Shown piece after piece: positions 15,792-63,613 of a stretch of DNA of 64,000 bases; the first letter of the stretch is position 1; each line of letters starts with the position of its first letter. This stretch comes from Nymphaea colorata (lineage: Eukaryota > Streptophyta > Magnoliopsida > Nymphaeales > Nymphaeaceae): the NCBI RefSeq assembly GCF_008831285.2, contig NC_045142.1, positions 23,869,300-23,933,299 of the forward strand, read 5' to 3'. Made by a program: the position numbers and the translations under genes. Below the pieces are notes generated by a model. The model was given only the letters and a program-made list of their open reading frames with translations. It was not told the origin of the DNA and ran no database searches.

Positions 15792-16680
<889 letters not shown>

Positions 16681-19600
16681 ATGGAGTGCCAAAAATCCGT
16701 GTCCTTAAAGCCGAGGCCCTTGTTTGTTCTGTCACTCATCATGTCGTCCTCTCTCCTCTTGTGCTTGTTCTTCTGGTTCTACATTGACCTCCCATTTCTA
16801 GCACCCCAGGCACATATTTCTTTCAACCAGCCATCATTGACTCTTGATTTGACGGCCCCCCAAGTTCAGAATCTTACAGCTTCTGTGGAGAACATCAGAG
16901 TTACTGACGCCAACTTCACTACCGGCGTTCGCTCAGATGTAGGGATTGGAGTAGTTGGTAGTCCTTCAAATAAGAGGTTGAGTTCTGTTCAAGCCAACTT
17001 GAGCGACAACCTTCACTCAGATGTGGAGTTTGACATTCTTGGTGGTTCTTCAATTAAGAGCGTGGATTCTATAGAAGCCAACTTGAGCAGAAACCTTCAT
17101 TCAGACGTGGGGATTCAAACAGTCGATAGTTTATCAAACAAGAGTTTGGAGTTGGCAGGTGGTGAGGACATGAGCGAGAAGGGGGATAACATCATTGAAG
17201 AAAAGAGCCTGGATACTGGAAAACTTGACAGTATATCAAACAAGAGTTTGGAGTTGGCAGCTGGTGTGGACATGAGCGGAAAAGGGGAGAACATCATTGA
17301 AGGAAGGACCCAGGCAATGCAGAATCCCGACTGTGATATTTACAGTGGAAAATGGGTTCTTGATGAGGAGTATCCTCTCTATTCTAATGAATCATGCCCA
17401 TTTATAGATGAAGGCTTTAACTGTGGCGGGAATGGGAGGAGGGATAAAGGCTATATGAAGTGGAGATGGAGGCCGAACGACTGTGAAATCCCAAGGTACC
17501 CTGTTTCGAGCAGTATTTCTTTTCTTTCATTTTCTTCTGCAGCCGAGGTCCTTATGAACGCATTTAGCAAATGAGGGTGGTCTCTGTTCTCCGTTGGCAG
17601 ATTTAGTGGTGCCAATATGCTGGAACTGATAAGAGGAAAAAGACTAGTTTTTGTTGGGGACTCCATTAATAGGAATCAGTGGGAATCTATGCTGTGTTTG
17701 CTGTTAGGAGCTGTGAAGGACCGAAGCAAGGTTTTTGAGGCACGAGGCCACAGAATTACAAAAGGGAAAGGGAAATACAAATTCATATTATTGGTAAGAG
17801 AGCCAGAAACTGTTTTTCTGCTTCTTGTTTTTTTCAGCATGTATCTGGGTTTTAGTTCCTTGATTTTTTGAGCTGGGATATTCAGGATTACCAGTGCAGT
17901 GTTGAGTACTATCTTAGCCATTTCTTGGTCCATGAAGGCAAAGCTAGACTAGGACAGAAGCGACTTCAGACGCTGAGGATTGACACGATTGCTAAGAGTT
18001 CATCCAAATGGAAAGGTGCTGATATATTGGTCTTTAATAGCGCACATTGGTGGTCGCATTCAAAAACAAAATCTGGGTGAGGGATTCTTGATGTGTTTTA
18101 TGTGCTTCAACATTTCTTTGTTAATATAACGTCTCTAGCTAAATTTTGGTTCTTATGTTGAAATCGGAGGAAGTAATTTAATCTACAATTAGTCTGATCC
18201 TTCATGTGATGTGCTATTCAGCAAGGTTAAGTCGGGAGATATTCATTTATGCACGAATCACCAATTGAGACAGGACCTTATTTAAACTAAATTGGTTATG
18301 ATATGTTGCATCATGAAATTGAGAAGACATTATTTGTGGAGATTAGACATGGAAACCGACTTATTTTGGTATCATATGAAAATAATCCATACAATTACTG
18401 AAAATTAATTTTCAGGAAGCACTTAAACCAAATAGTGGTGGCTTGATCTCGAGACCATAGTGGAACCTTCATAGCTACGATTTCAAAATTATAAGTTTTT
18501 TTGCTTGTCTTGGTTCATGCTTTTAAGGCACACTCTTATTTCTAGACCTGCACTACAAGTTGAGAGCTCAGTAGGGAAAAGAGTTATTTTTCTGCTCAAA
18601 GGCACAGTCAGTAGGGAAACATAATCAGAAAGAGTTAGGTGGTTCCATGTCCATGAAAAAGAAAATTTCATCCTCTGGAATTTTCTGTGCAGAGAATAAG
18701 GAATCCTAAAACAAAAAGCTGTCAAATGGTAAAACCAGAGAACCATGTGCCTCAGGCCTCATGAAAATGTTAGCCTTATGAAATTGTTCAGGTATAAAAG
18801 TTGGACCTCCTAAACCTCAGTGATAATCTCGAATCCTGGAAATACTTCATGTCAAAGTCTTTCTGTCAATATTAGAAACCTAAAAGCTGGTGTGGTGACA
18901 TAAAAGAAAAGCGTAGGTTTTCCTCAGCATAGCTTTTAAATCCAAACAGTTGGTTAGCAGATCCTCAGAATCAAAAACTGAGTTTTTGACGAATTTGAGA
19001 TGCTTTGCTAAGGAAGGGTACCATTTCAATTCTGATTGTGAGTGGTATTCTTTTTATGAAGTTCGATATTGACTTTCCTTGTAGCCATTAGTCGAAACGA
19101 GTGCATGTCACTGTACATACAACAGAACCTTGTTCTTGCTGTAATGGTTGGCTTTCTCATCTCGTTGAGAAATCTTGAATTTCTCATGTCTCCAAAGGGA
19201 TTTTCATTTTCCAAATGCTGATACTGCCCGAGAATATGGGAGAGGAGATTTACTGAGTGGCTCACTGTATGGTTGTGCTTAATTTTTCCTATTATTTCTT
19301 GATCATCAAAACATGTGCTAAATTACATAGGGTTCTTGAAACGTACAGTGCATGCTATTTTTGTTGCCTTGTTTTAGGAGACAACATTCTTATAGAGGAC
19401 ATGAAGATGAACTGTAATTTCCTTGATGTTGTAAAACTGAATGAGGGATAAATGTGAAAATTTGCTAAGGAGTTCCAAAACAGTCGCAGAAAATTAAACA
19501 AGAGAACTTACTGCCTGTTAGATGAATTTTTGTGGTAAATGCTTGGCTAAATCAGCCAAATTAAACAAGTCTCTTGTTCGTAAAGCTCTCCTGACTTCTC

Positions 19601-29074: not shown

Positions 29075-30815
29075 TTAGACGCTGCCCACACTCTCATCTG
29101 GCAGGACCTTCCCCCAGAACCAGTGCTGCCTCCACACCAAGACCATCTCTTCAATCGGAACGTTCTTCGTCTCCGGCAAGAAGAAGAAGATGAAGACGGT
29201 CATAAGGAGGACCCACCCGGCGAAGAAGAAGAAGAGGCCAAACTTCAAGTGGCAGAGCATTGTAAGGAAGACCTGCGCAATGATAAAGGTGCAGAGGAGA
29301 TTCACAGACACATTGATGCTTTGCCCAGCAGATCGGACCTCCAGCGGGAAGATTTCACTGGGAACCAACCATCCGAGAGGACCCCATGACCAGGCGAATG
29401 CAGCGACGTACGCACAGATCAGGAAGAGGACGAAGTCGGCCGTGCCCTTGGTCAGGTGGCCGGTGCCTGATATTCCGAACGTCTTGCCCAAGACGATTCC
29501 TACAAGGACCTGCAACAGCCATGAGAATCCAGAGCTACCGGTAGAACCAATCAACATGGGAACTAAAACAGGGAAGGTTATCAATATGAACCCTGTTTCG
29601 TTACCTGACATATGAACATCTGGGTGCCTCCCTCAAGGAACAAGGCCCGCCGGCCGAATTTGTCGACGGTGGCGATGGACACGAAGGTGGCAATGACGTT
29701 GACAAGGCCGGAGATGACCGCCGACATGAGGGAAGCATCATCTCCGAATCCTAGGGTCTTGAAGAGCACCGGTGCGTAGAACATGATGATGTTGATGCCG
29801 GTGAATTGCTGGAACAGAGGAATGGCAATCGACATGACAAGCTGAGGCCTGTACTTCTTCTCAAGGATGTTGGCCCATGGGTGCTTCACTTGCTTGGAGG
29901 CCTCACTGGCGTCAACCAGGTCCTGCAATTCATCATCCACATTGGTGACCCCCCTGATCTTCTGCAGCATGGCCTTCGCCTTCTCTTTGTGGCCGCGCTC
30001 GATGAGGGAGTTGGGTGTATCCGGCAGGAAAAGTGTGCCGGCGAGCATGATTATCGCCGGAACTGCTGCTAATGCAAGGGAAATTCTCCAACCGTACCCG
30101 CCATTGATCTTGCTGGTCCCGTAGTTCACCAGGTTTGCAGCAAAAATTCCAATGGTGATGGCTAATTGGAAGCACATGTTGAGTGCACCTCTGATCTTGG
30201 TTGGCGCCATTTCTGAGAGATAAACTGGAACAGACTGCAAAAATGGCAGACCAATGCTCAAACTTAGCTACCAAATGAACTGGTCGCTAAATGCACATGC
30301 TGAATTACAATGTGGCTACATGAGTTGGTGGGGAAGATTGAACTGCTGCCTACCTGGTTGGCGAAGCCGACCCCAACACCAAGAAGAAGACGACCTATGA
30401 TGAGCATGGCAACATTCTGAGCAGCTCCATTAATGGCTGCACCAACCAGAAAGGTTAAGCCTCCGAAGATCATGGATGCCTTCCTGCCGGACACCCTGGT
30501 CACTGCCGAGGCGGCGAAGGACGCCACCAGTCCGGCTACGTATAAGGATGACGTGAAGACGGTGAGGAGCTGGCTGTCGAATTTGCAGTACTGGTTCTCA
30601 TGGCTAGCATCAAGCTGCTGCTTGGCAAACACCGAAGGGAAGAAGGTCTTCAAGAAGACGTCCATGGAGGTGACCCCACCCGAGACCCCTATGTCGTAGC
30701 CAAAGATGAGCCCACCGAAGGCGGCCATGATGCAGGTGAACACCACGAAGGAGGTGACCTTCCCTGCGTAGTGCTTCATTTCTCCTCCTTGATGCACCAT
30801 TGCTCCACCTGCCAT
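29075..30815 (-). CDS. STP: STP-type monosaccharide/H+ symporter
   Basis: Three minus-strand exons, 30815-30354, 30234-29605 and 29509-29075, join in phase (junctions after ANQ and ICQ) to 508 residues, the normal length for plant sugar transport proteins of the MFS. The 12-helix layout is visible with the family signatures [19 protein letters not shown] in helix 1, [13 protein letters not shown] in the first loop, [16 protein letters not shown] in helix 7, [28 protein letters not shown], and [11 protein letters not shown] after helix 12. It should import hexoses across the plasma membrane driven by protons. The three-exon structure with short introns is usual for STP genes. A TATA box (TATATAA, 30,943-30,937) lies about 125 bp upstream of the ATG. 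The exact STP number cannot be assigned. Confidence 0.95.
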
Positions 30816-30936
30816 CTTCTTCTTCTTCTGTAATTTTTAGACTTCTCTTCTTTCTCTGATCTTTGTGATCAAAGGCTCTTAGTTGGGAGTTTCTTACTCT
30901 TTACAACTCCTGGTATCATTCTCCCTGCTTGCTTCC

Positions 30937-50446: not shown

Positions 50447-53400
50447 CTAGGCATACGTTGGAGCAAGGCATTCATCAACCATACCCAGCAGGTTTGGATT
50501 TTCCAGTGCTGCTGCTACTCGTTCCTTATCATTCAGCTGTTTATTAACTGCCATTCAAAGCAGCACACTTAGCAATCTTTGCACAATATATATATATTGA
50601 AATCTACTTGCTTCCAAGTATTGCCGGATGATTTTTTTGATTTTCCATCGCTAAAAACTGTTGCAATAGGTGTATTAGCAACACTATTGGTTGGGCCACG
50701 TTTTTTCACAGCTATAGCGATGGCTTTTAGGATTTTTAGTGACGGAAATTTTTTTTAAAAAAAAAAATCCATCTGGTAACACTCAGCAGTTGGCAGATTT
50801 CAATTTTTATATATATACATATTCGTCAACTATTTAAGAATATCAACTTTGTCAGCTAACACATAACCATTAGATGACATAGATGTGTGAAGGATACGTC
50901 AACAAAAAGAAACTCTCCCTTCTCTTTCGGGTAATTTTTGTCACTATAAAAGTACCTAAACCATTCACTTTTTTCTTTATTCAGGACGGGCATCTTAACC
51001 ACACACCTATCAATTCATTGGTTTAGGGTTGGTTGACAAGGTTGACACTATCAGATAATTAACAATCTAAGGAGCATATATATGTGTATGTATGAGAGAG
51101 AGAGTGTGTACATATATATATATATACATAACACAGCGATTAAATAATTACAAAAATTTTACCTGCAGTCTCTGATGCGTGAGTGCCTGGTGCTACTCTG
51201 ATATCCACCTAGTAAAGAAGAACAAAGATGTCAAATTTACAAGTGATGCCCTCACAGCAAAATGTACTAATTACTGAAATGTCCTGATAGATCCAGGTCC
51301 TATTGGTTCAGTTTAGTTTTTCTTTCGATTGTGCATGAGATAATTTGTATGGTCGGCAAATTTTTAATTCTTTATACATTGCCTCTTTCAAGTGTACACC
51401 TGCAGCAAAATTGGTTCTTAATATATAGCTGTTTCTTGTAACCATAGTCATAGAAAACGCGTTTTTTTTCAAAAGAAACGCGATAAACTAACTGGCCCGT
51501 TTTACACTTTAAAAAAGTGCAATTTTTCACATTTTTTTCAGTTTTTTTTCACTTTTTTCAGTTTTTTTTAATGTCAAACAGTTTTTTTTCATTTTATATT
51601 TTTTATTTGTTGCAAATCTATTTATCTTTTGATATGTTCTTAGTTTCTCAATTATTTTTTTCCCTTTATTTTTAGTTTTTAAAAATTTTTAGAAATTTAC
51701 CATATTTTTCCCATTTTTTTCAAGCAAGCCGTATTATACCCAAGAAAAACCTCGCCGTTTAAAACTCCAAGACGTTATCTGTGACTAAGTTGTAACTAAT
51801 TCAGTTTGTTCAAAATCATGACCTCAAGCAGACGTGGGTGTCTGTATGTGGAGATTATTTTTCAAAGGAAGAACCATATCCTGTAATGTTCTATTCATCT
51901 CATATCCTTTTTTTCCACTGGCTGTCCAGTTTTTCTAATCTTCTTGATCTGTATCTTTTCTTTACATTCCTTCTTATATCCCATCACTTCTCGAATCTGT
52001 TCTCTTGCCTATCCTTAGAACATTGTCTCATTCTTAGAAATGAAATTGGTTGCCTACTTTTCAACAGTCATATTCTGTGTTTATTTCAAATTTTAAAGTC
52101 AGATCAGTTCCGACCTTCAGTCTCCTACCAGTTTTTTTTTCTTGTCATGGATCTCAGAATTGACAGCATCAGTGTACCAGATTACTTCTTTCTGGTACAA
52201 ATATTAGTTCTCGGAATTCCATTCTCAGTTTTCCTTTGTTTTAATAGGCTGTTTCTTCATGTGTCAAATATTGATCATGGACCTCAACTCTTCTGACTCG
52301 GACTTATCTTTCAAACTTCATTTGTGTCTTGTTTCTGAATTCTGATAAACTCGAAAATATAAATTGTTCCTTCCATAAGAAGTCATGGTCTGCCTGATCA
52401 TCTTGATGCATCTGTTCCTAGTCTCTCTGAGTTTTCTGTGCAAGAGCAAAAGGATAGCAAAGGGGCTGTTATTACTATAGATATCAGAGAATTCAGAATC
52501 CAGGGTAATGCATTTAAAACAGGACCTTTATAATTTAAAGAAAGGAACCCTTACAGTGATGGAATATTTTGAAAAATGAAGAATATTACAGACCAAAGCC
52601 ATTGCTGGACAGGAAATTTCTGATAAAGATAAGATTCAACAAACTCTTTCTGGGTTTGGTCCTGAATACCATGTTTTGTCCACTATTTTGCATGCTTTCA
52701 AGTGTTGCCCTCTTTTGAAGAACATGGACCCCAACTTTTACAATATGAGATGAATTGGCTTACTTGGGCATTCTACTACTATAACGGGAGGCATTGAAGA
52801 AGATCTAGTTAGCTGAAGTGACCATAGGAAGAGGCTTTCATGGAGGAAGAGGATTATGAAGGTAGACAAATCAGAAGGTCAAGGCCTCTTGCTATTGTCT
52901 AATGCACAACCTACAATAGGAGAAAGCTTTTGCTGCTGCAGGAACTATTATTAGAGAAGTCCCCTCTTGCTATTTGTGCAAGAAAATATAGATAGTTAAG
53001 GCTTCCTTTCATCTGAAAGAAGATCCTAATTAGATTCCAGGACAAGGAAAAATATCAAACCAAGGACTAACCAAAACTTGGAGAGTAGTGGTGCTAAAGT
53101 TGCTTTACTTGCCGCCTTGTCTATGCTCAATCTAAAATAGAATGAATGAGGAGTGTGGCTGGAGCAGCTGGTCATATCCTGAGTGTCGAAGATCTAAGTT
53201 GGTTCCTTATTATGGAAAATTGTTCTTACCGAACATGGAAGAAAACATCCCATCATCCATATAGAAAGGTGACCATTTCCTCGGCTAATTCCAAAATGCC
53301 AAACTTCTTGATGTTTTTTGTGTTAACAATATCAATAAGAATCTTATGTCTGCATCTAAGCCTGTAGATGAATACAAGGTCTTGCATAGTTTCTACTCCA

Positions 53401-56400
53401 TCTTTTGTGTACGTGAAAGATCTCCAAGTCACAATATGTATCTAAGGGGATTCTTTAATGAAGTCTAGAGAGATCATTTTCGAAGCCAATGCCATTGGAG
53501 TCTTCAACTTATTTTTTGGGATTGAAGAAATTGAGCCAATTTCACATAGTAGCGTGGTGCTAGGAATAATGATATTGTTTTGTTTTTACTTCTTGTAATT
53601 TTTCTTTTTTTATTTTCTGTATTTTTATTTTGTTTTCTACTACTTTGCGACTGAAAGGAAGCCATTAGCTCTCCTGTAGTGACCCGACCCACTCTTGGGC
53701 TCGGGCCCGTGGTCTGACGGATCCCCACCAACCCCCTAGTAGTTTTGGTTCCAGCCTGAAAAAGACTACAAACTAGGACAACTAACCACTTTAACAACCC
53801 TCATTATAAGCCTTTAAAATCTCTCACAATCTTCAATACATGACTAAACTTTTTGGGATGTTACAATCTACCCCCCTTAAGGCACAGTGTCCACGGGTGT
53901 GGGACCGCATGTCCAATCGTTGAACCATGCTCTGATACCATTGTAATGACCTGACCCACTCTTGGGCTCGAGCCCCTGGTCTGACAGATTCTGACCCACC
54001 CCTTAGCAATTTTTGTTTTAGTTTGAAAAAGGCTAGGAACCAAAACAACTGACCACTTGAACAACCCGCTTTATAAGTCCTTAAAGATCTCTCACAAACT
54101 TCAATACAATACAGGACTAAACCTTTTGGCGTGTTATACTCCAACGGCTATAAGCCTCCCACTGGAGACCCCAACAGCCCCTTGTCATCTCTATATAGGG
54201 GACCTGTTTGTCCCATTTGTAGTAAGCTTCTTCGAAGCCAATTTGTGAACAAAATTATTAGGTTGGTTGTGCCTTGGTGCACAATCTCTCTCATTCACCG
54301 ATATTGCAAGTGCTCTTTTGCGAAGTTCTTGGTGTGAGAAATATACATTTTATCTATATTTTATTTACAATCATTGAGTGGTTGTCTTCATGGAAGGATA
54401 TTTCTGCTACTTCAACATAGATTTATATATCTTGATATTTACAGCTTAGGCCAACCTAGTTATGGGTTTATTGAGCGTCTGATCTCTAGTTTGTTGATCC
54501 CCAAGTCTGACTCATGAGATTCAAGGTGGCTTATTTCAAAGCTGCCAATTATATAAGAGTGATGTGCTTCCCTTCTCACAACAAAAAAGCTTCAAAACCC
54601 TTTGACATTATCCATCCTAATCTTTAGGGTCTCGTCCTACAAGATTCCTTCTACGGCAGCAAGCACTATCGTCTTTGTTGATGATTATTCACTGCATATA
54701 TAAACTTATTTCATGAATCAAAAACTTCTAGTCATTAACATATTCTAGGAATTTTATGCCCTTTCCACAAACCAGGTTAACCAACCTTTTGTGAATATGA
54801 AAGGTTTCCAAAGTGATGGAGGTGGAGACTACTCCGATAAAGATTTCACTGATTTTTTTCGTGATAATGAAATCAATCAAAAAGGTTTCTGCCCTCACAA
54901 CCTCAACAAATGGCATATTGAAAGAAAGCATTGTTATATTGTCAGGAGTGCATTGGCGATCATACATGCTAGCGGGATTTTACAAGATTGGACACTGGAG
55001 CTTTTCACTCTACTAATTTTCCTAGAAATCACTTGCCCATGAAAATGTTAGTCATTATTTTGTACTTTATAGGGAACATCCAAATTATGATATTATGAAT
55101 CACGTAGATGTGTTTGTTATGTCCGCATAGGCAAAAGTCAAAAAAGTAAGTTTCCAAAATAAGTATATGCATGCAGATTTCAGATTCTTGGATAAGACAA
55201 TAATTGCAAGGGTTATCCTTATCATGATCCTACCAAATGTTGCACACATATATGAAGGAATGCTGCCTTTGATGAAGGCTGTTTTGAACAGGTTAGAAGC
55301 AATAGGCTGCAGGAAAATGAGATCAAAAAGACAAACAGGATATTATTCTCATATGACTGATGAGAGCAATAGCATGCTAAGAATTCTTCCAAAAAACTGT
55401 CAAAAGCAGCATGAAGATGGGTTTGGACAAGGTACATGAGTAGAGAAGAAGCAGACATACAAGAGGGGATTATTACTCTAAAATACCAAAAGGGCTTGCA
55501 GCTAAAGAATAAGAAGAGCAGGAGATGAGATCAGTTGTTGAGTCTGAAAAACAACAACAGCAGGTCAGATCAGTTGTAGAGAAATTTACCGAAACTGCCA
55601 ATACTGTTTGAAAGATGGTTCAGCTATGAACATTTTAGCGCTAATCATCAAATGTATTGGGATCAAAATGCATTTATAAGACCAGACACAAGCTTGCCAG
55701 AAATACAGAGAGATAAAGCAAAATGCATTGCACAAAGTGTCATACAAGAGTATGGATTGGATGATGAAGAGACCTTCAGTCCATTTGTAAAAGTGGCAGT
55801 ATTCAGACAATCTTACCACTAGTAGTAGATCAGGTCAGACTTTAAATCAAATGGATGTAAAAAATACTTTCTTACATAGGGATTTGAAAGAAAAGATGTA
55901 TATGAAACGACTTGTTTGGTAATACTAAAAAGGACACTAATGCTCCTATGTGTAGGTTAAAGAGAGCAACGTATGGCTTAAATCAGCCCCCATTTTCTTG
56001 GTTTGAGAGTTTTTCTTGTGGAATTCAAAGTTATGTTTATTGTCACTAATTTTTTTTTACAAGCGACAGCAACATATCATTTATCTATGTTGATTATGAT
56101 TAACAAAGCTCAAAAGAACATATTCAACAGGTCAAAGAGCTATTGGTTAGAAGAACTCAGATGAAAGATTTGGGCATACTAAGTAACTAAAGTACTTCCA
56201 TAGAGTGGGGATTGGTAAAGCAATGATCCACTTCTGCTATCTAGGCTTATGCATATACTGTGTCTAGCCTTGTAAAGGTAAGGTATTGAATAATATTGAT
56301 TCATTGGCTGTACTTTGAGAGTGTGTGGGATTGTCATATGCATCACCTTCAATGCTACTTAACTTTTGATGTATAGGTGCTCGTGTAGTTGCTGACCTAC

Positions 56401-57209
56401 AGTCTCTCATGCCACTTTTGGTTAATAAATCCCAAGTATACTTGAGTTGTGACCATATAAAAGCAACTAAAAGAATACTAATGCATTTGGAAGGGACAAG
56501 CAGTCATGGATTGGTATACTAAAGTAGTTCACAAAGTGTGAACATGACAAGTGATGTCTTTTCCAATAAACGAGCGGGTTGGAGCCTTTGCATTGATAAA
56601 ATCTTGTTCCTTTGAACGGTAGCAAAGTTATAAAGGCTGAATATTGTGCCATGGCTGTTGTTGCTGCTGAGTTGACTTGGATATGCCATTTATAGATAGA
56701 GTTGAATGAAAAATTAGCAATCAGAGTTATTAACTTATTTTGTGATAATCAAAGTACAACTAATATCTTATTCAACATTGAAGGACAAAATGTATAGACG
56801 TTGACCGACATTTCAAAAGATAAAAAATGGACGCCAAGTTTATCCCAACAGAAAACCAGGTTGCAGATCTTTTCACCAAAAGAATCGACAGAACATTCTG
56901 GTCTTTGAAGAACAAGTTGAGCATGATTCAAACCATTCTCAGCTTGAAGAGGCTATTGAAACATCCTGATAGATCCAGATCCAATGGATGTGATTAGCTG
57001 TAAGTTAAGTTCTATTCTTTCAGTCATTGCCCCTTTCTGATGTACACTGACACAAGTAATTATTAAGGTTAAAGTTGGTGCAGTGGCAACATAACTGATT
57101 GAGGGTGTTTGATGATTTGGCCTCAAATAGACCATGATGTCTGCATCGGGAGATTATTTTCAAAGAAAGAACTCATGGTCTCTAAATTTGGCTCTCTTTG
57201 TTCTATTGA

Positions 57210-57253
<44 letters not shown>

Positions 57254-59388
57254 CTCTGGGAGGAAGCATAATCATACAAGGGCAATGAAAAACAAAAATA
57301 ATGAAAAAAGAAAAGGGAAACAAAAAGATTGATTCCCTAGCCTAATCCTTCATGTGAATTTCAAATCACACCCTGCTATTGCACTGGTTCAACCACTTTC
57401 ATATCCTCATGTCCAATCAGGCCCCTCACCAGCATGAACATGCTAAAAGACCCTCCTTATGGGGCTAACATTCCAATGGCAAGCAGATGCAAGGAGCTTA
57501 AATTTGTCTTGATGGAGCAAAATAAAGATCCAACAACCATGTCGAGGTCTCAGATAAACCTGGCATACAGAAATCTCTGCTTGCTCTTTTGCATCCCACA
57601 GTGGTACTCTGCTCTTTGCCTAAAAATTTCTTTCCTCCTCTTCTGCACATACATTTCCCACATCTCCCTCATCCCTCCTTGAGTCGAACTATTCTAAGTC
57701 TCTTGTCTTCTCCTACTTAAATTGCCATTTTCTTTTTTGCTTTGGTTCATAAATTGTCCAATGATCTGCTTGTGCAGGTTCTGGAAGCTGAACTATACAT
57801 ATCAGCTAATAGTTATTGTGCTGGAAAATACATTCCTCTTACCTTTGTTTAATTTTGGTGTTTACTTATCCACATTCATTTTCCTTTGGCAGTTAACAAG
57901 GGATCTCTTGACAACTCGAGCTTAGACTGGAATAAAAACGATTAAAAAAGAAAAGAAGGGAGAGAGAGAAAAACTTGCTATAGGAAAATACAAATCATTT
58001 TGTGGGCTTGCTTTAAGTTATTTGAGGATTAATTAGATTGATTCTTACCCACATTACCGTTCAAAACTTACACAAATAACCTATTCATGTAACTTGTGAC
58101 ATGTCTTTACAACTTTATATATCTGAAATCACATTCATCATCTCTCAAATTCGTCCCCCATTCTTTTTTCATCCCAATCCAATGCATGATGAAACAACAT
58201 GAGAATTAGAATGAGAAAAACAAAATTTATGCAGAAGCTTTATGCAGGTAATGCAGAATCACTGATCATGATGATTCACAATAGCATAAGGTATCATTAT
58301 CCAGCTATCCTCATAAATTAAAAATGACACATCAGTAACTACTCGGGCTCACCGTACGAACCAAAAAAGAAACTATTGATATACCTTGTACCTGGAAGGC
58401 AAGCTTCTCATGAGCTTGACACGAATGCAAAGACCAATAACGGTCGCCATACTACAATGCATGACAGTGGGAGTGAATGTGACCCTAGCAAAGAGACAAC
58501 GGTCCAATAAGTACGTAAAAACCAGAAGACTGATTTACTCATGAAGGATGCGGGTCAAGTAAGGTAATACAAAATTCAGTTGATCACTTACTTAACATGA
58601 CTTTGTGCATCATTCACTTCAATTGCATCTTCACTTACTACTTTCAGCTCTTCCAAAGAGTATGGATGTTCTGGATCTTTGATATCTCTAACATGATTTA
58701 CAATTGTTAAAGAAGATAGCATGAAAGATGTAAATTGTGCAGTTTTATTCTTAGTTTTGTTGTACCCTATAGAAGATAGTCAATCGTGAATCCGTGATGT
58801 ATATGCTGAAAAAATGTATATTCAGTAAGAAACATTATAAAACTAATGATGACAACATCACCACATTTGATTGGACATCTATTAGCTTCCCTGCATATAT
58901 GACGAACATCCTATGTCTTTGGCATCAAGCAATATCATATCTATTATGTTGAATGAAAAAATATATAAACACACAAGTTACTTGAAGAATGAAAGTGCTT
59001 TGTCAAATTGGATCTTGTTTATAGAAAAGATGATGACACTTGAAAGTAGAAGATTAATAAGAAAATGAAAGACTATATGATTATCAATTTTACACAAACA
59101 TTTGCAACTAATTGGTTCTTACCATCAAAGATCCTTCTGATTTTGAAGTATATAACACAACTTTATGACCTTTAAACAAATAAGTGAATAACAACATTTC
59201 TCTAGGACCTTTAGTCAAATCTGGGTTAACGTACTAAAATAAAAATAAATCAGAAAAAGGATATCAAAAACTTCCTGCTGGTCTATAGGCTCCACGGCGT
59301 ACTCGTCAGTATCCATCTGCACAGGGCGAGAGCGCCTCTCCTTTCTTTCATAGACCACGGGATTTGCATTAATCAATTCTGTTACCAT
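50447..59388 (-). CDS. AE7: AE7/MIP18 family protein (CIA2B, DUF59), cytosolic Fe-S cluster assembly
   Basis: Five minus-strand exons, 59388-59265, 58697-58592, 58484-58385, 51208-51163 and 50547-50447, join in phase to 158 residues, the family length. The protein begins [19 protein letters not shown] and contains [40 protein letters not shown] with the conserved Cys87, [18 protein letters not shown] and [22 protein letters not shown]7 works with CIA1 and MET18 to pass 4Fe-4S clusters to cytosolic and nuclear enzymes of DNA repair and replication; it was found through leaf-polarity genetics. The ATG at 59388 matches the known N-terminus. Intron 1 (59264-58698) starts ATATCCTTTT and looks U12-type, with AT-AA ends. 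Intron 3 (58384-51209) is 7.2 kb and holds a complete copia insertion. The coding sequence looks intact. Confidence 0.93.
50640..50750. mobile_element. Mini-MITE with TTTCCRTCRCTAAAAA ends in AE7 intron 4
   Basis: The left end TTTTCCATCGCTAAAAACTG and the reverse complement of the right end (TTTCCGTCACTAAAAATCC) form imperfect inverted repeats about 110 bp apart. A second internal inverted copy (GCGATGG at 50,717) lies inside. Ends of this kind occur on short plant DNA transposon derivatives. No coding capacity; superfamily not assigned. Confidence 0.6.
51443..51789. mobile_element. MITE, copy B, inserted in the copia 5' LTR
   Basis: A 347-bp T-rich element has ends CATAGTCATAGAAAACG / CTTAGTCACAGATAACG (right end read in reverse). 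It is flanked directly by the 7-bp repeat TTGTAAC (51,436-51,442 and 51,790-51,796). The interior aligns with copy A at 39,507-39,804, including the shared AAAAACCTC(A/G)C(A/C)GTTTAAAA near the right end. The copia LTR sequence resumes on its right side, so it inserted after the copia element. Confidence 0.78.
53675..54138 (-). mobile_element. TRIM (terminal-repeat retrotransposon in miniature) nested in the copia fossil
   Basis: Two direct repeats, 53,675-53,865 and 53,942-54,138, share TGTARTGACCYGACCCACTC at the left and end near ACTAAACYTTTTGG. They enclose a 76-bp centre. Read on the minus strand the order is LTR, a primer-binding site TGGTATCAGAGC (53,940-53,929), a short internal part, a polypurine tract AAGGGGGGTAGAT, and a second LTR beginning TGTAACATCCC. 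This is the complete TRIM layout with no coding capacity. The tetranucleotide CTCC flanks both sides (53,671-53,674 and 54,139-54,142). The two LTRs are visibly diverged, so it is not recent. Confidence 0.85.
57210..57253. repeat. Compound (CT)n(CA)n microsatellite in the copia 3' LTR
   Basis: A CT run followed directly by a CA run, about 44 bp in all. Confidence 0.95.
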
Positions 59389-61053: not shown

Positions 61054-62287
61054 GGTAACAAATGCAATACATAGCCTTTTATTATAATACACATTATCAA
61101 TGCATTTGCAAGGTTATTTGAAATAAAAAACAGTAGTTACCAGGCATCTTTGTGTATCATATCATAACCATTGTTTCAAACAGCTCTGTTTTATCTTTTT
61201 TTTTTCTTTTTTTTTGTCATGAATGCTCACAGTTAAACAAGTAAAACCAAAAAATATAGAAAAAGAAAATTGTTTGAGTTGTTGCTGTAGCTGGTGGTGA
61301 TGCGTGCCTGAGAGCATAGTATTTTTTACAGTATGTGAGCACATTAAGACGGATATGATTTCAGATGAAATCAAATCAAACGACAAAGCAAAGGAGATCA
61401 GGGATATAGCTAATCCCAATCCAATCCATTAACATCCCTAATCAAAACTAACTTTAAGAAATCTTTTGAAAATTAAGTCTCCTATCATCAAAATTAGCAA
61501 CCGATTAGCGGAACATTGCTCAACTTGCTTTTTCTTCTCTTTTGCATGATCAAGTCGATCGATTTATATTTTGAGTGATATGGCATTCCACCTATCATAA
61601 TGAAATGCTAGCAGTTCGCGACATCAATGGTAGAATGTCCTAACAAATAACGTAATTGAATTTTCTAAGTAGTATAGATGAAAATGCAATCCAAAGATTC
61701 AAAAGTTTTATATTTTATTTTTTTTTACTTTACTAATAACAACTTGTTAGTCTGAAATGACTTCTTCAATGAAGGTCAAACTGGAAATTAGTTTTCCATA
61801 TTTATTTCTTATTCTCACAAAACCTTGCTTATTTTTTGTTTTTCTAAAATAAAAATTATTATTATTATTATTAATGAAAGAGATGCAAAATTTGTTACCA
61901 TCTTGAGCCGTATCTCTCCAAGCCACCTACTACACCTCTTTGAAAGTCTTCTTTGAATGCTACGTCCCCGCCGTGACGAGGGGAAATGCTAGCCGACCTT
62001 AATACGTGGCTGACTGCCATTGGCGCAGCTGCATCAACGACATGGGCCCCACACGATCGGCGGGTCCCCTCCGGCGACTAAACTGGCCCGCTTCACGACG
62101 ACGGCGATCGCACAATGTCTGTATTGCCCTTGTTGATAATTTCTTTCGTTGTCGAAAGTGCGTCGTTGTACGCGTCACGGTGAGGATGGGCAAGTAATTT
62201 TGGCTTCAATGAGTGGAAACAGATGTCGGGTCTCATAGAAATCACCTCGTCCCCAGAATTCGGGAGCTTACCCGGACCCGTTTCTCG

Positions 62288-63613
62288 ATGGCCTCCTCGG
62301 TCGCCGCCGCGGTGGCGCTTGCGCTGGCGCTGGTTGGTCTTGCCGCTGCCGCCGGAGACTCCGACGACGGGCCGGCGGTAATCCGTCGGATCTGCGGCCA
62401 GACCAAGAGCCCTGACGCGGCCACCTACGATGCGAACTTTGTCGCGGCCATGGAGAACGTGTCGCGGTCCATCGCGCGCGCGGGCTTCGGCTTCGCGGCC
62501 GCCGGCGAGGCGCCGTACAAGGTGTACGCCTTCGGGCAGTGCTTCGGCGAGGTGAACTCCGTCGACTGCCAGCTCTGCTATTCGCAGGCGCGCGTCAAGC
62601 TGCCCAGCTGCCTGCCCGCGGCTGCTGGTCGGGTTTTCCTAGAGGGCTGCTTCTTACGGTATGACAGCCGTAACTTCTCGGGCGAGGCCACCGACGCCTT
62701 CGACGCGATCGCTTGCGGAGGGTCCAACGCCACCAATGGAGAGAGGCTCGGGAGGGTCGCCGGGAAGGTCGTCGGCGAGCTCCGGATCGACGAGGGCAAG
62801 TACTGGGCGAGGGCGGAGGAAGAGGCGAAAGGGATGAGGGTTTATGGGGCGGCGGAGTGCTGGAGGGGGATAGAAGGAAAGGGCTGCGAGGAGTGCCTGG
62901 ACAACGCGAGGAAGGGAGTGTTGGGGTGTGTCCCCGCGACGGACGGGAGGGCGATGAACGCCGGCTGCTACCTCAGGTACTCCACCACCAAGTTCTACGG
63001 GTCCGGGTCGGATGGTGGTTCTCATGGTCCGTTTTCTCTCTCTCTCTCTTATATATATATATATATATATATATATAGCTTTTCAACCGCGATATACAGT
63101 GCGTTCAGCTATATATTTTTAATTTTCATCTCCACCGTTCAGCAAATTTAAATTTCTATCTATTTATTGAGAAAAATTATTTGGTTTTTTTCCTTCTAAA
63201 CCATTATTGGTTTCAGTAATTCGGCAGCGGTTGGCGATAGCACTGGGTTCCATCTTTGGTTCCGCGCTGGTCATTGTCGTGGCTGTTCTCATCAGGGAAA
63301 GAAGGAAAATTCGCAGGAGCGGAGTTTCTTCTTCTCGTAGTTTTCCTGGTAAACAAGAATGAGCTGCTTTGGAGAATATTGTTCTGCATTTTTTGTCCTC
63401 TTGACAATATGTCATGTGTATGAGTTTTAACTTTATCCATCTCATGGTTCATTTCCTTCCAAATGTCAATCAGATGATGATGCATCTACAGCAATTATTA
63501 AAGCTATTACTGAATCACATCTCAGTTTCAAGTATGAAGATCTACAGACTGCAACCGGAGATTTTCATCCGTCAAATAAGCTAGGCCAAGGTGGCTTTGG
63601 CTCTGTCTATAAG
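62288..63613 (+). CDS. Cysteine-rich receptor-like kinase, 5' part (gene runs off right edge)
   Basis: Three exons, 62288-63026, 63217-63348 and 63474-63613, join in phase; the rest of the kinase lies beyond the window. The start at 62288 gives a signal peptide (MASSVAAAVALALALVGLAA). Two Gnk2/DUF26 domains follow (about residues 30-135 and 145-245). Each has C-x8-C-x2-C: CFGEVNSVDCQLC in the first and CWRGIEGKGCEEC in the second. Exon 2 encodes the membrane segment (LAIALGSIFGSALVIVVAVL) and the basic stop-transfer. Exon 3 begins the kinase with FKYEDLQTATGDFHPSNKLG and the glycine loop GQGGFGSVYK. CRKs are plasma-membrane receptors in immune, oxidative-stress and cell-death signalling. The separate ectodomain, TM and kinase exons are the usual CRK layout. 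Exon 1 is strikingly GC-rich compared with exons 2-3. Confidence 0.92.
63034..63077. repeat. (CT)n(TA)n microsatellite just inside CRK intron 1
   Basis: The run starts only about 8 bases after the proposed donor (CATG|GTCCGT), so repeat-length change acts close to the splice site. Confidence 0.9.

Follow-up and report, generated by a model that had tools for sequence, protein, structure and literature searches.

A probable U12-type intron with AT-AA ends in the AE7 gene of Nymphaea colorata

The window, the whole 64,000-nt stretch of Nymphaea colorata DNA analyzed here, carries on its minus strand a complete five-exon gene of the AE7/CIAO2B type. We take AE7 and CIAO2B/MIP18 to be the names of the plant and human family members, respectively. 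Joined, the exons comprise 477 nt and encode 158 amino acids plus a stop. The components of the gene are as follows:

59265–59388, minus strand: AE7 coding exon 1, from the ATG to ...GAAGTTTTTG, ending after codon position 1; placed by translation and by the gapless galla-2 alignment across the junction
58698–59264, minus strand: AE7 intron 1 (phase 1, 567 nt) with AT-AA ends, very probably U12 type
58592–58697, minus strand: AE7 coding exon 2, starting ATCATGTTAGAG
58485–58591, minus strand: AE7 intron 2, GT-AG, 107 nt
58385–58484, minus strand: AE7 coding exon 3, from the gene model
51209–58384, minus strand: AE7 intron 3, GT-AG, 7176 nt
51163–51208, minus strand: AE7 coding exon 4, from the gene model
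50548–51162, minus strand: AE7 intron 4, GT-AG, 615 nt
50447–50547, minus strand: AE7 coding exon 5, including the stop TAG

Introns 2, 3, and 4 are thus modeled as ordinary GT-AG introns, and intron 1 is not. The initial annotation had named the gene AE7 from its letters, and two comparisons agree. The 158-aa product matches the Pfam family FeS_assembly_P (PF01883; E 4.6e-09, 36.9 bits against a cut-off of 23.5). It also matches four distinct solved sequences. Two of them are FAM96A, and Drosophila galla-2 (6tbl; E 3.1e-54) comes nearest, aligned over query residues 3–154 of 158. The FeS_assembly_P domain and the full-length similarity together place the product in the AE7/CIAO2B (MIP18) family. 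Protein scans of the viral_contigs and genome_contigs sets returned 3 and 23 pattern-match stretches, respectively, none of them a relative; the exon 2 stretch 58592–58700 found no DNA match in the "plasmids" set, and an Rfam scan over the window yielded no family at gathering score.

Intron 3 (58384–51209, minus strand) contains a 144-nt direct repeat whose copies, 53675–53818 and 53942–54085, are 80% alike. Upstream of the ATG, a possible 5' UTR intron, read by eye, spans 59812–59434 on the minus strand (GGAAG/GTGATC ... TTGGTAG/GAAAAGG). Elsewhere, the window holds a sugar transporter gene at 30836–29075 (minus strand), apparently in three ORFs, of which the part scanned (29581–30264) matches Sugar_tr with E 4.6e-71. 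It also holds an ORF with a PMR5N domain (16678–17574, plus strand) and another with Stress-antifung domains (62213–63151, plus strand), both plant-type domains whose distribution points to a land plant.

Reread on the minus strand, the letters at intron 1 agree with its proposed extent (59264–58698), the proposed end of exon 1, and the ATATCC start. Exon 1 ends ...GAAGTTTTTG at 59265 and the intron opens ATATCCTTTTTCTG from 59264; it closes ...CTATCTTCTTTAACAATTGTAA at 58698, and exon 2 opens ATCATGTTAGAGATATCAAAG from 58697. The span as a whole reads ATATCCTTTTTCTG...TATCTTCTTTAACAATTGTAA, after which exon 2 begins ATCATGTTAGAGATATC. Excision of 59264–58698 leaves an intact 158-aa protein whose junction aligns without gaps to galla-2 (EIFDLIRNINDPEHP) and FAM96A (EVYDLIRTIRDPEKP). 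The features on which the assignment of intron 1 turns are the following:

59254–59264, minus strand: candidate U12 A-type 5' splice site ATATCCTTTTT, tied with a plus-strand site at 51902 for the top donor score on both strands of the window
58706–58714, minus strand: candidate U12 branch-point sequence TTCTTTAAC, with branch A at 58708 or 58707; the best match within the intron
58698–58699, minus strand: 3' terminal dinucleotide AA, from the sequence and the splice-pair scan

The dinucleotide AT occurs at both edges of the intron, and three registers, AT-AA (59264–58698), TA-AA (59263–58697), and AT-AT (59262–58696), therefore yield an identical mRNA, which RNA-seq reads cannot separate. The initial annotation had held that AT...AA ends alone give the family's conserved FDH junction in phase; AT-AA is indeed in phase, whereas its uniqueness does not stand. 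We chose the AT-AA register because it alone puts ATATCC at +1, and the ends are AT...AA in this donor-motif register. AT-AT is excluded here only by the donor motif; the main text of PMC10639083 describes that pair as almost absent among plant minor introns.

We scanned 118,385 start/end combinations of any termini, placing the start between 40 and 299 nt downstream of the ATG. An open frame was kept by 7,775 of these, which correspond to 4,464 distinct proteins. The AT-AA product scored 460 against galla-2, compared with best scores of 445 for GT-AG (19 in-frame pairs), 441 and 440 for AT-AG, 436 for AT-AC, and 419 for GC-AG. Five pairs with unrecognized ends (CT-AT, CC-CA, TT-TT, TT-TG, and TT-GT) slightly exceeded it at 464–465; they alter one or two residues beside FD and are without splice-site support. 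When these recognized end pairs are compared, the protein is best preserved by the AT-AA model, and every GT-AG pair scanned adds or removes residues.

U12 donor and branch signals were scored with hand-set weight matrices. The U12 5' splice site consensus has an alternative GT form, GTATCCTT. In the AT form, the published consensus is ATATCCTT (PMC2831892, PMC2426677), and ATATCCTTTTT (59264–59254) matches it at +1 to +8. With these hand-set weights, ATATCCTTT is the joint top donor among 127,984 positions on both strands of the window, in line with the donor match given in the initial annotation. The other exact ATATCCTTT, at 51902–51910 on the plus strand, lies opposite AE7 intron 3 and is probably a chance occurrence. 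At the far end, TTCTTTAAC is one base off TTCCTTAAC. As a branch site it scores 9.4 bits and ranks first within the intron, the runner-up (7.0 bits) lying 527 nt from the intron end; across the window it ranks 22nd of 127,984 positions under the hand-set weights, with 21 scoring higher. Eight nucleotides separate it from exon 2, and its two A's, 58708 and 58707, precede the exon by 11 and 10 nt as counted to its first base, consistent with the one-mismatch motif about 10 nt from the exon that had been reported for 58714–58706. A passage of PMC3584512 gives 11–13 nt as the optimal distance from branch to 3' end and states that either of two A's may be the branch point; a second paper gives a range of 10–15 nt. 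The observed 10–11 nt falls at the short edge of the 11–13 nt optimum. Judged by eye, intron 1 appears to lack a pyrimidine tract.

Neither U12 motif is informative by itself, each occurring at chance level in the window. On both strands, ATATCCTTT was observed twice against 1.27 expected and RTATCCTTT three times against 2.01 expected; TTCYTTAAY was observed four times in the window against 7.08 expected. What counts is position. Alignment of the protein narrows the junction to three equivalent registers. The coincidence of both motifs at this protein-fixed junction has a probability of about 1e-7 if the motifs are independent and three registers with 13 distances to the branch are allowed for; other weights than the hand-set ones could shift this figure by orders of magnitude. 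Duplex energies computed with snRNA segments were of little help and, if anything, count slightly against the U12 reading: The U12 segment gave −4.7 at the branch motif versus −8.4 at 58832, the U11 segment gave −6.1 at the donor versus −9.4 near 58891, and duplexes with U11, U12, and U6atac segments failed to single out these sites.

AT-AA ends have precedent among minor introns. According to the main text of PMC10639083, noncanonical ends account for ~4% of orthologous minor introns in plants, and AT-AA is the commonest noncanonical pair in plants and animals, making up almost 75% of the plant set. In the donor-motif register, AE7 intron 1 shares with those introns the AT donor, the AA end, and the U12 signals, and the text of that paper shows no difference from them. 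For ends beyond GT-AG, GC-AG, and AT-AC, the section of PMC7367187 that treats them gives shares of the U12-type introns of 1.1% (Arabidopsis), 1.2% (maize), 3.8% (rice), and 0 (soybean). The initial annotation had presented AT-AA as a rare pair known for U12 introns. The pair is known, as it said; the implied surprise was overstated for what is the leading noncanonical pair of plant minor introns (PMC10639083, main text). In the main text of PMC8280824, AT-AA is placed among the A-type (AT-AN) introns whose splicing CENATAC promotes in human cells, and the paper notes evidence that plant CENATAC takes part in an autoregulatory circuit. In the donor-motif register, AE7 intron 1 has AT-AN ends like these introns, although their dependence on CENATAC comes from human cells.

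The human orthologue provides the closest parallel. In the parts of PMC4010461 that concern it, human FAM96B (CIAO2B) intron 1 accumulates under a U6atac morpholino and not under a U4 morpholino, and the reverse primer for unspliced FAM96B, reverse-complemented, is ATCTTCGATATCCGCCGCT, which reads ATCTTCG/ATATCC. The primer thus encodes Ile-Phe and then G/ATATCC, where AE7 here has TTTTTG/ATATCC: In both genes the intron interrupts the Asp codon of (I/V)FD after its first base, and codon, phase, and the first six intron letters are shared. Beyond ATATCC the two diverge, with GCCGCT in human FAM96B versus TTTTTC in AE7. We read the human ATATCC as intron because the primer targets unspliced RNA and because the next family residues, Leu-Ile-Arg, are not encoded by the primer letters. 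Leu-Ile-Arg comes next in the galla-2 and FAM96A alignments, and human FAM96B itself presumably continues in the same way. The orthologue comparison that the initial annotation had proposed for intron position and ends therefore finds agreement in one orthologue, human FAM96B, in codon, phase, and donor start as far as its primer extends. AE7 intron 1 is probably an ancestral A-type U12 intron shared with human FAM96B by descent.

Two other splicing patterns are in frame and open and were weighed against the AT-AA model. One uses the same U12 donor with an AG acceptor (AT-AG, 59264–58686), either as the principal product or as an alternative 3' end used occasionally. It has some precedent, since AT-AG is among the human A-type minor introns listed in the main text of PMC8280824 and a passage of PMC3584512 reports U12 3' end choice to be error-prone; the same passage nevertheless terms AT-AG disfavored. 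The AT-AG 3' end lies 20 nt beyond the branch motif, outside the published ranges, and the product loses HVRD, which aligns without gaps to galla-2 and FAM96A, lowering the galla-2 score to 440 versus 460 and the PF01883 match to 31.9 versus 36.9 bits. We regard this pattern as most improbable. An AT-AC intron that closes on the AC within the branch motif itself (58706) was also considered and rejected: TAA falls in frame (by eye), and the pair is missing from the in-frame list.

The other is an ordinary U2-type GT-AG intron with its donor at 59234 and its acceptor at 58686 or 58767, the latter adding 33 residues before HVRD. Against approximate matrices, acceptor 58767 scores well (7.7 bits versus 5.5–5.8 for the gene's three GT-AG acceptors), whereas donor 59234 reaches 2.5 bits versus 6.2–8.3 for the gene's three GT-AG donors. 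The top product of the 19 in-frame GT-AG pairs falls short of AT-AA (445 versus 460), and a U2-type reading accounts neither for the ATATCC donor and the branch motif nor for the correspondence with the human U12 intron. We give this reading scant credence, too. It bears on the earlier statement that nearby GT and AG sites fail to keep both phase and conserved residues, which holds if insertions are barred; GT 59234 with AG 58767 keeps phase, FD, and HVRD while adding its 33 residues. Protein score and site strength led us to reject both AT-AG and GT-AG for the main product. Least probable of all is that errors in sequencing or assembly have altered the junction of what is in fact a standard U12 intron with AT-AC or GT-AG ends: One sequence cannot exclude one-base errors, but the rest of the five-exon ORF is intact, and AT-AA ends are established for plant introns (main text of PMC10639083).

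AE7 intron 1 is thus very probably an A-class (AT-AN) intron of the U12 type whose ends are AT-AA, an assignment that extends to splicing in the plant and to the exact ends by reasoning from sequence. The overall U12 AT-AA reading of the initial annotation holds up in its gene, junction, donor, branch motif, and branch distance, and the human FAM96B intron matches it in codon, phase, and donor start.

Within the U12 intron, a scan for nested pairs returned one in-frame GT-AG pair (59234–58767; donor 2.5 bits, acceptor 7.7 bits):

58767–59234, minus strand: hypothetical nested in-frame GT-AG pair, which would add 33 aa between FD and HVRD

Among 200 shuffles, 98 hold some in-frame nested pair and 9 equal this one, and the pair is probably a product of chance. 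Were it used, the intron would form a plant twintron, in which AT-AA removal would give normal AE7 and nested GT-AG removal would give 33 extra residues in the FD-HVRD region. Cytosolic iron-sulfur assembly would then be adjusted through minor-spliceosome activity, and for that reason the A-type U12 intron would have persisted in the gene since the plant-animal common ancestor. We consider this scenario very unlikely. The Drosophila prospero and dUrp twintrons, with overlapping U12 and U2 sites (as described in a passage of PMC3584512), would be alike only if the nested pair here is used; compared with them, the nested donor in AE7 intron 1 is weak, and those 9 shuffles are as good.

If the U12-type AT-AA assignment is right, the U11/U12 di-snRNP would bind ATATCCTTTTT and TTCTTTAAC together, U6atac would replace U11, and one of the two branch-site A's (58707 or 58708) would attack the 5' end. 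The 3' cut would be set mainly by the short branch distance (10–11 nt), with AA accepted instead of AC. Dependence on U6atac is in print for human FAM96B intron 1 (the relevant parts of PMC4010461) and by analogy would be expected for AE7 intron 1.

A literature search, with U12DB, ERISdb, IAOD, and supplements outside its scope, found no link of a U12 intron to At1g68310 or of U12 or the minor spliceosome to Arabidopsis AE7; AE7 intron 1 may well be listed already in one of those resources. FAM96 is absent from the main texts of PMC8280824, PMC2426677, and PMC10639083, as are AE7 and CIAO2 from that of PMC10639083 and CIAO2 from that of PMC8280824.

AE7 intron 1 adds to a well-described kind, its human orthologue being already known to have a minor intron at the same place, and knowledge of splicing itself is unchanged by it. 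It illustrates cleanly how an intron would be mis-called by a gene finder that allows GT-AG ends alone. It also connects a plant AT-AA intron with one in the human orthologue, located at the same codon, for which dependence on the minor spliceosome is experimental. Cytosolic iron-sulfur assembly may accordingly be considered a candidate for control by the minor spliceosome in both kingdoms.
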